Origin: Pseudobdellovibrionaceae bacterium
GTDB lineage: Bacteria; Bdellovibrionota; Bdellovibrionia; Bdellovibrionales; UBA1609
DNA: 64,000 bases
Assembly: GCA_023954155.1 (NCBI GenBank)
Contig: JAMLIO010000005.1
Span: 1-64,000 of the forward strand
Direction: 5' to 3'
Position numbers and translations under genes: made by a program. Numbering within the stretch: the stretch's first letter is position 1; the number at the start of each line of letters is the position of its first letter. Shown here one piece after another: positions 664-30,519 of the stretch. Below the pieces are notes generated by a model. The model made no database searches and was not told where the DNA came from. It saw only the letters and a program-made list of their open reading frames with translations.

Positions 664-757
664 AGAATAACAGTCTCAAACAAGATTGAGCACTTCGCTC
701 ACTGAGCGCATTTCCTCATTGGGGTGGGATTGGGTTTTATATTTAGGTTTTTGGATA

Positions 758-841
758 TGTATGGTCGAAATGCGAGTTCGGCTTGGCATGATTTTGCGAA
801 TGCAAAATCATGCCAAACCGAACTCGCATTTCGACCATACA
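758..841. repeat. 84-bp near-perfect palindrome (repeat family copy 1)
   Basis: Bases 758-798 pair with 801-841 with a single C/A mismatch (782/817) and one G/T pair, giving a stem of about 40 bp with almost no loop. It lies between two convergent genes. The right half reappears at 29104-29156, so this is a dispersed repeat and not only a terminator. No T-run follows it on either strand. Confidence 0.85.
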
Positions 842-8660: not shown

Positions 8661-8737
8661 CGGACTGTGGCGCAGCCTGGTAGCGCGCAACCTTGGGGTG
8701 GTTGAGGTCGCTGGTTCGAATCCAGTCAGTCCGACCA
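8661..8737 (+). tRNA. tRNA-Pro (GGG)
   Basis: A complete 77-nt cloverleaf: acceptor CGGACTG/CAGTCCG, D arm GCGC/GCGC, anticodon stem CAACC/GGTTG with loop TTGGGGT (anticodon GGG at 8694-8696), T arm GCTGG-TTCGAAT-CCAGT, and an encoded CCA at 8735-8737. A 153-bp inverted repeat begins five bases later and a terminator hairpin lies at 8934-8962, so the primary transcript may carry that large hairpin. Confidence 0.96.
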
Positions 8738-8741
8738 GTTT

Positions 8742-8894
8742 TACAAAGATTTTAAAATTCAGATGATGATCTCCATAGAAGTAGCCACGCCCCTCCTGGG
8801 CTCTGCCAGCATTTGCCCCTTTGGGGCAAAACACATCCGTTTGCTGGAGGACTACTTCTATGGAGATCATCATCTGAATTTTAAAATCTTTGTA
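8742..8894. repeat. Long inverted repeat, 43-bp perfect arms
   Basis: Bases 8742-8784 pair exactly with 8852-8894 (43 bp, no mismatch). The 67-base interior holds a further perfect hairpin, TTTGCCCC-TTT-GGGGCAAA, inside a CCAGCA...TGCTGG pair, so a branched cruciform is possible. It begins five bases after the tRNA-Pro CCA. No coding sequence is visible inside. Its arms differ from those at 758-841 and 29007-29220. Confidence 0.9.
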
Positions 8895-26915: not shown

Positions 26916-29015
26916 ATGGGTAAGAATCTTAAACAGAACTTTGTTGTTGTCGTTGCAATCCTTTGGGGTTGTATTTTAGGAAGTACAACCAGTGCGTGGG
27001 CTGATGCGGCCCCAACCACATCACCTTTAACACTGACACGCGATATGCTGGTGTTAGAAGATGCAGCCACTTTGGATGCCTCTTGTGCTTTGTCACCTAG
27101 TGACCCTTTTGAGCGTCCTCACCGTATTTCTAAGGGGTCAAAAAAATATGGTAATGAGTGTGTGGATACAGACCGTTTTCGTTACTCTGAAATTTTAAAT
27201 CAAAACAAATCCGAGATCGTATTTTCTAACTATCGACATTTAGATGAGTACTGGACTGCGGCTTTGTCTTTAAACGCCGTGGTGGATCAAGTTTTTTTCC
27301 ATGTGGTGCGCTTTGAAGCGATTTCTGGAGTCATTGCTGCGCACACTCAATTAAGAATTAAATTTTCCAACCAAAGCCCATTGAAGCTGGTCTCTCAACT
27401 TGATCCACAAAAGACCACAGAGGTGTTTGATCTGGTGATCTCTTTTGAAGCGGGTCGTCCTGTGAATGTTCCTTATAACTTTGCTTTAGGGGCTGTGGAC
27501 AACTATGTGTCTATGGCTCGTATTTTATCAGGCCATCAAAGACTAGCAGAAAGCACAGAGAACACCACAGAACAGTACGAACTTGAAATCCCCCAAGAAG
27601 AAAAACTTCACATTGCTCTGCTTGGAATTGAAAAATCCTCTCGTGACGGGTTTTCACGTTTCTATAATACAGTCAGTGAGAACTGTACTACGGATGCCTT
27701 TGGAATTTTAGATGCACTAAGTTCTATGCAAGGCCGTGCAGAACCTTTTTTGACCGTTTTATCTAACGATCCTGTTGCGGGCCCCTCTATCCGTGCCCTA
27801 CAAGAAAGAAAGATTTTAAAGGCACGATTTGCAGATTTAGATGAAGAACTGATGAAAGGGATCAGTGGTTATAAGCCTGAAACCAGCATCAATTCTACAA
27901 GTTCTGGTTTTTTACCTTATGTTAAAGATCATCCTTATTCGCTTGTGATCTCTAGCCCTGAAGAACGACTTTTATCCGTAGAGCAGCTGCAAGCCGTACA
28001 AGAGATCAAAGCTTTGACCTATGAAGCGGTCCCTAGAGCTTTACACTTAGTGGGTTCATCTTTGATGTTAGCGCAAGGCGATTCCAGAGATTTTTTATTT
28101 ACATTCTTAAAAGAAGCCTCTTCATCTTTAGAAAAGCGCATTCAAAAGATCAATGGCAGTCTGCCTGAGCAAGCTGTAGAAGTGGTGGCCTACCTTGTGC
28201 CTTGGCAGGGTGGAGGACAAAAGGTCAACTTGAATACAGTGAGCAGCATGCAAGCCCGTTTACCTTTTGATTTTTATCAGATCAGTCATAAAGATATTGG
28301 ACTTGTGTCTGCGGGCATTGCGCGTGCCACTCAAACTCAAAGCATTCCTGAGTTTGGTCTTCAGGCTTACGCCATTGCTTTGCAGTTTTATCTTAAAAAA
28401 GATGCGTGGTCGGTCTCTATGCAGGTGTTAGGTGGATTGAATGAGAGAAATGAAACCTTAGCTGTGGCCAACCCTCAAGTGAACATCAGCAGTTTTATTA
28501 TTCCCGAAGCTCCACGTCGTTCCGAGCAGCCCGTAGTGCTTTTGAATGTGACTTTAACACCGCAAGATAAAAGTGTACCTCAGTTCAATATGGAGTTTGG
28601 ATCTTTTGGTGGGTTAAAAGCCAGAACGCAACCTAAAGCTTATGGGCAAATGTCCATTATGAATTCTGGATTTTGCGAGAGCCGTTTGGCTGTAACACCA
28701 AGACTAGAAGGGAAATTTGCAGGAGAAGCCACAGGCTATTCCGTTGTAGATTATATTTTTGAAGGCAAATTCGTATCCTTTAATATTTTTAAAGTGAACA
28801 TGGATTTAGAAACCCAACGAATCATCGACATGGACATCCGCTTTAACTTTTATATCTTGGGTCTTCCAATTTCTTGCTTATCCCAAGACAGCGTGAACGA
28901 CAGTTTCAAACAAAGTGCTAACGAACAGATCGAACAAATGGTCAAAAGCCTACAATCTTCCGATGCCACAAACCTTGTCACACCCATCGTTGATAAAGTG
29001 CTAAGCAACAACTAG
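26916..29015 (+). CDS. Large exported protein, possible Lnb/DUF4105-type N-terminal domain
   Basis: A 699-aa secreted protein with a signal peptide ending SAWA-D (about 30). Residues about 85-270 include RYSEILNQNKSEIVF, YWTAALSLNAVVDQVFFHVV and a FYNTVSENCTTDAFGILDAL segment whose Asn-Cys resembles the Lnb N-terminal (DUF4105) motif; this likeness is moderate. The rest is unique and beta-rich, with a C-terminal GQMSIMNSGFCESRLAV and a long LEGKFAGEATGY strand set. GGGGAGATAGAAG precedes the ATG. The gene ends inside the arm of a 56-bp inverted repeat. Confidence 0.65.
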   Translation: MGKNLKQNFVVVVAILWGCILGSTTSAWADAAPTTSPLTLTRDMLVLEDAATLDASCALSPSDPFERPHRISKGSKKYGNECVDTDRFRYSEILNQNKSEIVFSNYRHLDEYWTAALSLNAVVDQVFFHVVRFEAISGVIAAHTQLRIKFSNQSPLKLVSQLDPQKTTEVFDLVISFEAGRPVNVPYNFALGAVDNYVSMARILSGHQRLAESTENTTEQYELEIPQEEKLHIALLGIEKSSRDGFSRFYNTVSENCTTDAFGILDALSSMQGRAEPFLTVLSNDPVAGPSIRALQERKILKARFADLDEELMKGISGYKPETSINSTSSGFLPYVKDHPYSLVISSPEERLLSVEQLQAVQEIKALTYEAVPRALHLVGSSLMLAQGDSRDFLFTFLKEASSSLEKRIQKINGSLPEQAVEVVAYLVPWQGGGQKVNLNTVSSMQARLPFDFYQISHKDIGLVSAGIARATQTQSIPEFGLQAYAIALQFYLKKDAWSVSMQVLGGLNERNETLAVANPQVNISSFIIPEAPRRSEQPVVLLNVTLTPQDKSVPQFNMEFGSFGGLKARTQPKAYGQMSIMNSGFCESRLAVTPRLEGKFAGEATGYSVVDYIFEGKFVSFNIFKVNMDLETQRIIDMDIRFNFYILGLPISCLSQDSVNDSFKQSANEQIEQMVKSLQSSDATNLVTPIVDKVLSNN

Positions 29016-29220
29016 GCTCTGGATTCGGACTTAGATTTATAACTTAGAATTTCTGAGTCTTTATTATTATATATACTCAAAATGCTCAGACAGTGACGTT
29101 TGTCATGATTTTGCGTTCGCAAAATCACGCCAAGCCGAACTCGCATTTCGACCATATATAATAAAAAGACTCAGAAATTCTAAGTTATAAATCTAAGTCC
29201 GAATCCAGAGCCTAGTCGTT
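29007..29220. repeat. Long inverted repeat, 56-bp arms, spanning two stop codons
   Basis: Bases 29007-29062 pair with 29165-29220 with one mismatch (29010/29217). About eleven more pairs follow after a one-base slip. The arms hold the stop codon of the plus-strand gene (29013-29015) and of the minus-strand ThrE-type gene (29212-29214). The 102-base centre holds a second copy of the 84-bp palindrome family (29104-29156). Confidence 0.9.
29104..29156. repeat. Partial second copy of the palindromic repeat
   Basis: About 53 bases match the centre and right half of the repeat at 758-841 with roughly five differences, including the inner TGATTTTGCG...CGCAAAATCA hairpin. The left distal arm is missing and replaced by unrelated sequence. 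It lies inside the loop of the 29007-29220 inverted repeat. Confidence 0.8.
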
Positions 29221-30519
29221 GGGGATTTGGATATCGCCTGTGATCTTGCGGTAAATGCGGTAAGGAAAGCGGGCGGTGATTAGGCCGAACACGATTGAGG
29301 CTGTGATCAGGGAGATTTTTAAAATGGTGGTGTCGGTAGTCAGTGTATTGCGGCCGTGTTCGATGCCGATATCGCTGTAGTTGTAAAGTGAAGCAGACAA
29401 TACTCCAGGGACTAAAGAGATGATGCCTGGGACGGAGAAGACTTGGCTGGGAATTTTGAACATGCGGGCAAAGGTTAGACTGCTTAGGCCTACAATCAAT
29501 GAGCTTAAAAATGTGGGGAACACATAGTTTTGGTCTGTTCCTAATAAGTATACGGTGGCCCAGCCTAGAACGCCTGAAATCGAAGAAAAAATAATATATT
29601 TAGCAGGAGTCTGAAAGCGTATGGCAAAGGCGGTCACAATCGCAAAGGTGGCCACAAGGTTAATGCTAAAGCCTAAAGTGTGGGCTCCCGCAAATCTAAG
29701 ATTGAGCTGAGTTTCAGAGTAACCTAAGGTGTCCAAGGCATCTACGCCTAAGAACAGAGCCGTTCCAATGGCCAGAAGAACCAAAAGCCCTTGCGCCATT
29801 TTTACTGTTCCAGACACAAAGTTATGCTCGGCCAGTTCTGACACGGCGGTGGTGAGCATAAGTCCAGGCACCATGTTGATTAAAGGGCCAATAAACACGG
29901 ATTCGATAGGAATTTTGAAATTCACAGATAAAATGGCAGAGATCACAATACAAAACAAAGAGCCAAAAAACACAAAAAAGATACGCGTAAAGGACAGCAC
30001 GTTCATCATAGGTTGAATGAGCATGATTAAGATCAAGCTAAGGATTCCACTGCCAAAGGCTGCTAAGAAGTTAGAGAACTCTAAAATGCTCACTAAAAAC
30101 CCAATAGCAAAAGAACAGATGAGCACCAGAATGTTTGAGTACAGGGGAGCTAAGAACTCTGGGGTGCGGACCTTTTTGTGACCTTGTTTTAAAGTGATAT
30201 CTTTATTGATAAGTTGCTCAAAGAGGTGGTCAATTTTAAAGAGGGCGTTGAGGTCAATGTCAGACTCTTTGATGCGCCTGAGTGTGGTGGCAAAACGTTC
30301 TTTTTGGTCAAAAGCTGAGATGATAAGAGCGGAAGGGGTGGCAAAAACCTCGGCCTCGATATGATAGGCTTGCCCTAGGCGCCATATTTTTTCCTCTAGA
30401 CGGGTTGTAGGTCCGCCAACTTGCAAATAATAGGCTCCCAGCCTAAGTGAGCAGCGTTCAAAGTCGTTAAGCAGTTTGCGTTGTTGGCTAGAAATCTTTT
30501 TGTTGTCTTCAAGAGTCAT
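29212..30519 (-). CDS. Threonine/serine exporter, ThrE family
   Basis: Integral membrane exporter of 435 aa with both ThrE domains. The N-terminal domain (about 1-250, DUF1212) keeps GGPTTRLEEKIWRLG and EVFATPSALIIS; the C-terminal domain (about 270-430) has the second helix bundle ending PYRIYR. About ten hydrophobic helices are visible. It is predicted to export threonine or serine by proton exchange; substrate is by family only. The last codons and stop lie in the arm of the large inverted repeat shared with the convergent gene. Confidence 0.9.
   Translation of the reverse strand: MTLEDNKKISSQQRKLLNDFERCSLRLGAYYLQVGGPTTRLEEKIWRLGQAYHIEAEVFATPSALIISAFDQKERFATTLRRIKESDIDLNALFKIDHLFEQLINKDITLKQGHKKVRTPEFLAPLYSNILVLICSFAIGFLVSILEFSNFLAAFGSGILSLILIMLIQPMMNVLSFTRIFFVFFGSLFCIVISAILSVNFKIPIESVFIGPLINMVPGLMLTTAVSELAEHNFVSGTVKMAQGLLVLLAIGTALFLGVDALDTLGYSETQLNLRFAGAHTLGFSINLVATFAIVTAFAIRFQTPAKYIIFSSISGVLGWATVYLLGTDQNYVFPTFLSSLIVGLSSLTFARMFKIPSQVFSVPGIISLVPGVLSASLYNYSDIGIEHGRNTLTTDTTILKISLITASIVFGLITARFPYRIYRKITGDIQIPND

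Follow-up and report, generated by a model that had tools for sequence, protein, structure and literature searches.

The stretch of DNA analysed here, 64,000 nt long and hereafter called the window, contains two convergent genes, one for an exported protein and one for a ThrE-type exporter, whose stop codons sit in opposite arms of a long inverted repeat (Table 1). Aligned without gaps, the arms (29006-29062 and 29165-29221) are 57 nt long, are separated by a spacer of 102 nt and differ at a single position (CAACaACTAG versus CAACgACTAG); when one 1-nt gap is allowed they reach the central core, with 67 of the 69 alignment columns identical. The inverted repeat with one mismatch reported in a preliminary description of this DNA is thus real. 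Its statement that the arms take in the last codons and stops of both genes also held: these occupy the outermost 10 nt of each arm, the first 10 nt of the left arm (CAACAACTAG) being the final codons, stop included, of the Lnb_N-domain gene, and the last 10 nt of the right arm encoding those of the ThrE-type gene. The very long self-paired hairpin that had been proposed was borne out by folding prediction, which gave −126 kcal/mol for RNA of the plus strand and −139.5 kcal/mol for that of the minus strand (z = −19 and −22, respectively, against 200 shuffles). Only four inverted repeats scoring at least 15 were found in the window, this hairpin being the strongest, and none was found in three shuffled windows. 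The window's only Rfam match at the gathering threshold was a tRNA; matches at a relaxed threshold resembled generic long hairpins.

Table 1. Positions of the genes and repeat features of the window
Feature	Position	Strand	Details
Family A relic	756..841	.	Near-perfect palindrome, 40-bp arms, 4-nt loop; near contig end
Family B hairpin adjoining a tRNA gene	8742..8894	+	43-bp perfect unique arms at 8742-8784 and 8852-8894; core B at 8785-8851
Gene for 699-aa exported protein	26916..29015	+	Lnb_N periplasmic domain (PF13387)
Left arm of hairpin	29006..29074	+	69 nt, first 57 nt ungapped; repeat search, arm alignment
Family A core	29075..29153	-	79 nt, conserved structured centre; model R1
Inner hairpin of core	29100..29133	.	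Imperfect, with G-U pairs; differs between genomes
Right arm of hairpin	29154..29221	-	68 nt; matches the left arm in inverted form except for one mismatch and a 1-nt gap
Gene for ThrE-type threonine/serine exporter	29212..30519	-	PF06738 and PF12821

The centre of the hairpin, already suspected to be a palindrome from a repeat family, belongs to a dispersed family here called A. A DNA search of the genome (2.44 Mb in 15 contigs) returned ∼40 copies of the central ∼100 bp, with the arms left unmatched, and a covariance model (R1; two-sided changes at 20 of 40 core pairs) matched 39 loci, including that of the window (29065-29163, minus strand, 106 bits). A plain DNA search of relatives gave no match, and the covariance model was needed; with it, the core was found in 17 of the 47 genomes of the same family and in 30 of the 141 genomes of the order, the latter including members of four further families. 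One of the carriers is a MAG labelled 'Bdellovibrionaceae' at NCBI (JAHBUU010000097), in which one family A core (L054/L263) is interrupted by another palindromic sequence, and another (G042) is a single contig of 2.7 Mb. The hits inspected have in common motifs of the type GAGTTCGG ... CGCATGTCTGAGC around the inner hairpin (in the genome of the window, AAACGTCACTGTCTGAGC); the sequence of the inner hairpin is particular to each genome and the stems are locus-specific, while the internal-loop motifs of the core are conserved across genera. No match to the core was obtained among phage or plasmid records or in a pattern scan of IMG/VR, and a pattern match in Actinomycetota was set aside as a probable chance match, with neither core nor arms around it. 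According to the preliminary description, finding the same genes without the repeat in relatives would reveal an insertion. The repeat was found in relatives as described above, but the two window genes were together in none of the genomes searched, their homologues occurring in a few genera too distant for the junction to be aligned. No empty site was seen either, in a set in which the genus is represented by one genome and intergenic regions from other genera could not be aligned.

The layout seen in the window recurs at almost every family A copy, a fact that lay beyond the view of the preliminary description: when copies were laid out with their flanks, nearly all were framed by a long inverted repeat of their own, of differing sequence. 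Within the genome, the mean identity of the family A cores was 0.905, and that of the arms at 21-40 nt from the core was at chance (0.33 versus 0.32 and 0.26 versus 0.26). In eight pairs of copies with cores only 0-1 edits apart, the arms were 0.74-0.81 identical next to the core, 0.41-0.45 identical at 8-20 nt (expected, 0.37) and 0.34-0.45 identical at 21-40 nt (expected, 0.28). Since nearly identical cores carry arms that are near chance, the arms must have been acquired copy by copy, the stem not being inherited along with the core. In the carrier genome G029 the arms retain a partial consensus between copies, as they also do in G060; in G029, however, arm similarity does not fall with core distance, which speaks against simple inheritance. 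The length of the arms clusters by genome (∼40 bp in the genome of the window, ∼32 in G029, ∼27 in G013 and ∼29 in G028), a pattern that plain replication slippage does not predict and that is suggestive of a step in which length is measured.

Three loci have, in one of their arms, a coding end that homology shows to be native. At a family B locus (L115; this second family is described below) the 82-bp left arm holds the native end of an OppC/DppC gene (...GDGLRDAFDPKMKK-stop), with which PDB 8z21 and 8z1v align as far as residues 291-293 of 294; an exact inverted copy of this arm forms the other one. At a further family A locus (L027) an arm holds the native end of CutA, to which PDB 3gsd aligns up to residue 101 of 103. 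In the window, homology to proteins of G033 (ending in LLSNN) and G019 marks the terminal LSNN of the Lnb_N protein, encoded in the left arm, as native. The other arm is therefore the inverted copy at these three loci, two of family A (the window and L027) and one of family B (L115), on which the naming of native arms rests. Judged from its sequence, the right arm of the window hairpin is a mirror copy of the end of the Lnb_N gene, and it is from this copy that the ThrE-type gene takes its final codons and stop. The conserved ThrE-type domains (ThrE_2 included) end at residue 416 of 435 and only the last codons lie within the right arm, so a replaced tail would be tolerable. Among the three origins offered by the preliminary description, a duplicated gene end is accordingly the best supported; the other two, a bidirectional terminator and an insertion at a CTAG palindrome, fared less well, as set out below.

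An alternative is that the hairpin is a functional RNA, such as a bidirectional terminator or 3′-end protector, in which pairing is kept by compensatory mutation and the core serves as a binding site for a protein or for RNA polymerase. This would fit the covariation of the core pairs, the conservation of the internal-loop motifs across genera and the extreme stability of the predicted fold, as well as the gene contexts in the genome of the window, where, going by simple ORF calls rather than curated genes, 12 of 32 family A copies lie between convergent genes and 14 between tandem ones, that is, mostly at gene 3′ ends (3 are divergent, 1 lies inside an ORF and 2 could not be resolved). The pairing of the arms nevertheless points elsewhere. 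Over the first 30 arm pairs of the G029 copies, 795 of 810 pairs were Watson-Crick, 3 were G-T and 12 were mismatches, even though the copies differ from one another by 20-50%; arm pairing is thus more perfect than is usual for selected RNA stems. Selection for pairing leaves G-U intermediates, of which the arms have almost none while the inner stems of the cores contain 4-10% G-T, and gradual compensation could not write the inverted coding end of OppC or CutA into the other arm. Further, a terminator scan of the region between 24 and 34 kb found five sites (8.8 were expected) and none at the hairpin, although it counts only loops of 3-8 nt and is therefore weak for a hairpin of this kind, and in G029 7 of the 23 resolved sites lie between divergent genes. 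These divergent sites led us to reject a strict 3′-end or terminator role as a general one, and a bidirectional terminator is not supported as what the element primarily is; a functional RNA as a whole appears unlikely. The preference for 3′ ends in the genome of the window may instead reflect tolerance, hairpins being least harmful there, and the element may influence transcript ends locally. Copying of the flank into a second arm remains the reading that we prefer.

Hairpins with shared tips and site-specific stems number about 76 in the genome and fall into three families, A, B and C. Core B, apparently distinct from A, has 13 copies, with arms of about 43-95 bp that are unique to each copy; the one in the window directly follows a tRNA gene (8661-8734). 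At another copy (L124, contig C9:56559) a G/C-rich run interrupts the right arm, splitting an outer stem of 47 bp, perfect in other respects, from the inner one. Core C has ∼24 copies, of which 12 matched over the full length and about 12 others carry both end motifs; 10 of the 11 copies laid out with their flanks have arms of 49-82 bp. About half of the core C copies (L271-L290) have a different and longer inner hairpin of their own. The three cores show a loose resemblance near the 3′ side (ACGCAT/ACGCGT), for which no homology is claimed. In 126 kb of loci from this genome, all 47 inverted repeats scoring at least 20 carry core A (degenerate in one case), B or C; this sample was drawn around cores, so that core-less repeats may exist elsewhere, but the unselected window agrees with it, containing no core-less long inverted repeat beyond a single one of 15 bp. 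Within the DNA examined, long arms depend on a core.

This dependence bears on a second alternative, in which the core was inserted into long palindromes that already existed, either old terminators or a CTAG-centred palindrome with overlapping stops. The two sides of the window element, when joined without it, do give a near-palindrome with overlapping stops (CAACaACTAGTcGTTG), and at three loci (L013, L016 and L018) outer paired segments are split from the inner arm by unpaired islands. Long palindromes would then be expected to occur without a core, which is at odds with the 47 of 47 and with the lone 15-bp exception in the window; an 82-bp perfect palindrome that includes the C-terminus of OppC is, moreover, implausible as an old terminator. 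As to the insertion at a CTAG palindrome suggested in the preliminary description, insertion as such is supported for the core, which is a dispersed repeat; a CTAG palindrome may have been the target in the window but is not general, CTAG being absent from most arm ends. We regard insertion into existing palindromes as improbable. The narrower idea that the outer arms are always old terminator stems was dropped, separate outer segments being present in only those three copies. The data agree better with stems that were written after, or together with, the arrival of the core.

The elements were also compared with known mobile repeats. An ordinary MITE, that is, a non-autonomous transposon whose arms are the terminal inverted repeats used by a transposase, would likewise be short, dispersed and intergenic, with long inverted arms and a core homogeneous within the genome, and both MITEs and enterobacterial repeats of the RU/ERIC type are non-coding and palindromic and have no gene of their own (PMC10969869, PMC2229807). 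In MITEs, however, the terminal repeats are conserved between copies, whereas here the conservation is inside out: the centre is kept from copy to copy, and each copy has its own version of the arms, the part on which a transposase would act, arm identity in this genome being at or near chance beyond ∼7-20 nt. Inspection of arm ends and flanks revealed no recurrent target duplication, the window copy alone having CTAG at either side. An origin as an ordinary MITE is thus about as improbable as insertion into old palindromes. REP/REPIN sequences, which are mobilised with RAYT (Y1) proteins (PMC3116915), are similarly dispersed hairpins near gene ends and homogeneous within a genome; the present elements differ in that no match to the Y1/RAYT domain (PF01797) was found in the genome of the window or in six other carriers (G013, G028, G060, G061, G066 and G001), and this absence excludes a Y1/RAYT transposase as a general mobiliser. 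The genome does have one retron-like reverse transcriptase (RT) locus (C2:213961; L243, 1020-2307), in which an ORF with an HTH precedes a 324-aa RVT_1 protein. Family A copies are located within a few kb of it (C2:211739, 221640 and 224292). No RT was found in the carriers G060, G066 and G017, several of which are incomplete MAGs; with this single RT missing from some carriers, an RT is not established as the mobiliser. The repetitive hairpin-forming elements described from sponge mitochondria are likewise dispersed and invade intergenic DNA (PMC2800124).

Several contig ends of the assembly carry family A (C2:1, C7:6, C10:1, C13:92 and C9:229), as would be expected if short-read assemblers had mirrored the sequence at hairpins, a concern raised at the outset. 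The same architecture is nonetheless present in tens of independent assemblies, in four other families of the order and in the single contig of G042; unlike the result of mirroring, the two arms of a hairpin show single mismatches and indels between them, and they end sharply inside contigs. An assembly artefact is thus very improbable.

Three sets of observations carry traces of the copying that we propose. A family A copy has been reduced to the near-perfect half-core palindrome listed in Table 1, while a sister locus with an almost identical flank (L010, contig C6) retains the asymmetric core; a palindrome of this kind would be left behind if synthesis reversed at the inner hairpin, although this one lies close to a contig end. 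(The near-identical flank itself, at 561-857 in the window and in L010, is duplicated at two sites of the genome.) In G029, three copies (L127, L139 and L145) have a core inverted relative to flanks that are conserved or shared with other copies, which suggests inversion between the arms; spacers are known to be inverted when template switching occurs between arms (PMC8604942). Finally, orthologous elements in G066 and G028, and in G013 and G066, occupy the same place in the same orientation and yet have different self-complementary arms, which indicates that arms are in some cases altered at their site, once the element has inserted. Template switching is known both to create and to maintain perfect hairpins (PMC8794818), and in the mitochondria of Nematomorpha it has been invoked for the concerted evolution of arms that span coding DNA (PMC6649704).

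Taken together, the window feature is a copy of a hairpin core that is dispersed, and probably mobile, among Bdellovibrionales-type bacteria, and its stem was probably written by snap-back or template-switch copying of the flank. Only the tip, a structured core of ∼80 nt with some 7 bp of stem next to it, is common to the copies, and the long stem would be local. At or soon after placement of the core, the strand carrying it would fold back, and DNA synthesis would copy the flank in inverted form, converting flank X into X-core-X′. In the window, X would begin inside the last codons of the Lnb_N gene and X′ would carry the inverted codons and stop, where the ThrE-type gene would now end. Later template switching between the arms could keep them matched, and could flip the core. 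From these patterns we infer that the chemistry is snap-back synthesis, that it is coupled to insertion and that the core is mobile; gene conversion among cores could, for its part, make the cores look younger than the arms. More tentatively, and with a lower probability than the copying itself, the elements might represent a new class of mobile element in which folded cores insert in a self-primed manner, the core hairpin priming the copying of the flank and the stem being an inverted target duplication; cores A, B and C would then be families of one system, served by a polymerase or reverse transcriptase.

Hairpins attributed to template switching (PMC8794818, PMC8604942, PMC7202029) likewise have perfect stems formed or mended by single copying events, homogenised arms and inverted spacers, and one arm copied from native DNA in the other is what was found here at the C-termini of OppC, CutA and the Lnb_N protein. 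Those hairpins, however, arise as sporadic mutations, for the most part where a short inverted repeat is already present, whereas the long stems described here are confined to three dispersed cores of conserved sequence and include copied ends of genes. The coding palindromes of Nematomorpha mitochondria are similar in that long perfect inverted repeats extend over coding sequence, with concerted arms and template switching proposed; they differ in their mitochondrial setting, and a conserved dispersed core is not mentioned in the available text of that report (PMC6649704). Our literature search found no published description of core-capped elements with locus-specific stems of this kind. On the best reading, the element is neither a classical terminator nor a MITE nor a REP, and resembles a dispersed palindromic repeat with stems that behave like template-switch products.

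In bacteria, inverted repeats that are both long and perfect tend to be unstable. Despite this, about 76 are maintained in the present genome, all with one of the three cores at the tip. Were the stems copies of the flanks, they would provide a natural and repeated record of template switching, with a core that can be tested as the trigger, and they would reveal a route by which the 3′ end and stop codon of a gene may be rewritten as the mirror image of its neighbour's. Stems that are site-specific and yet perfect, with no G-U intermediates, would also make a case against reading every covarying stem as a selected RNA structure.
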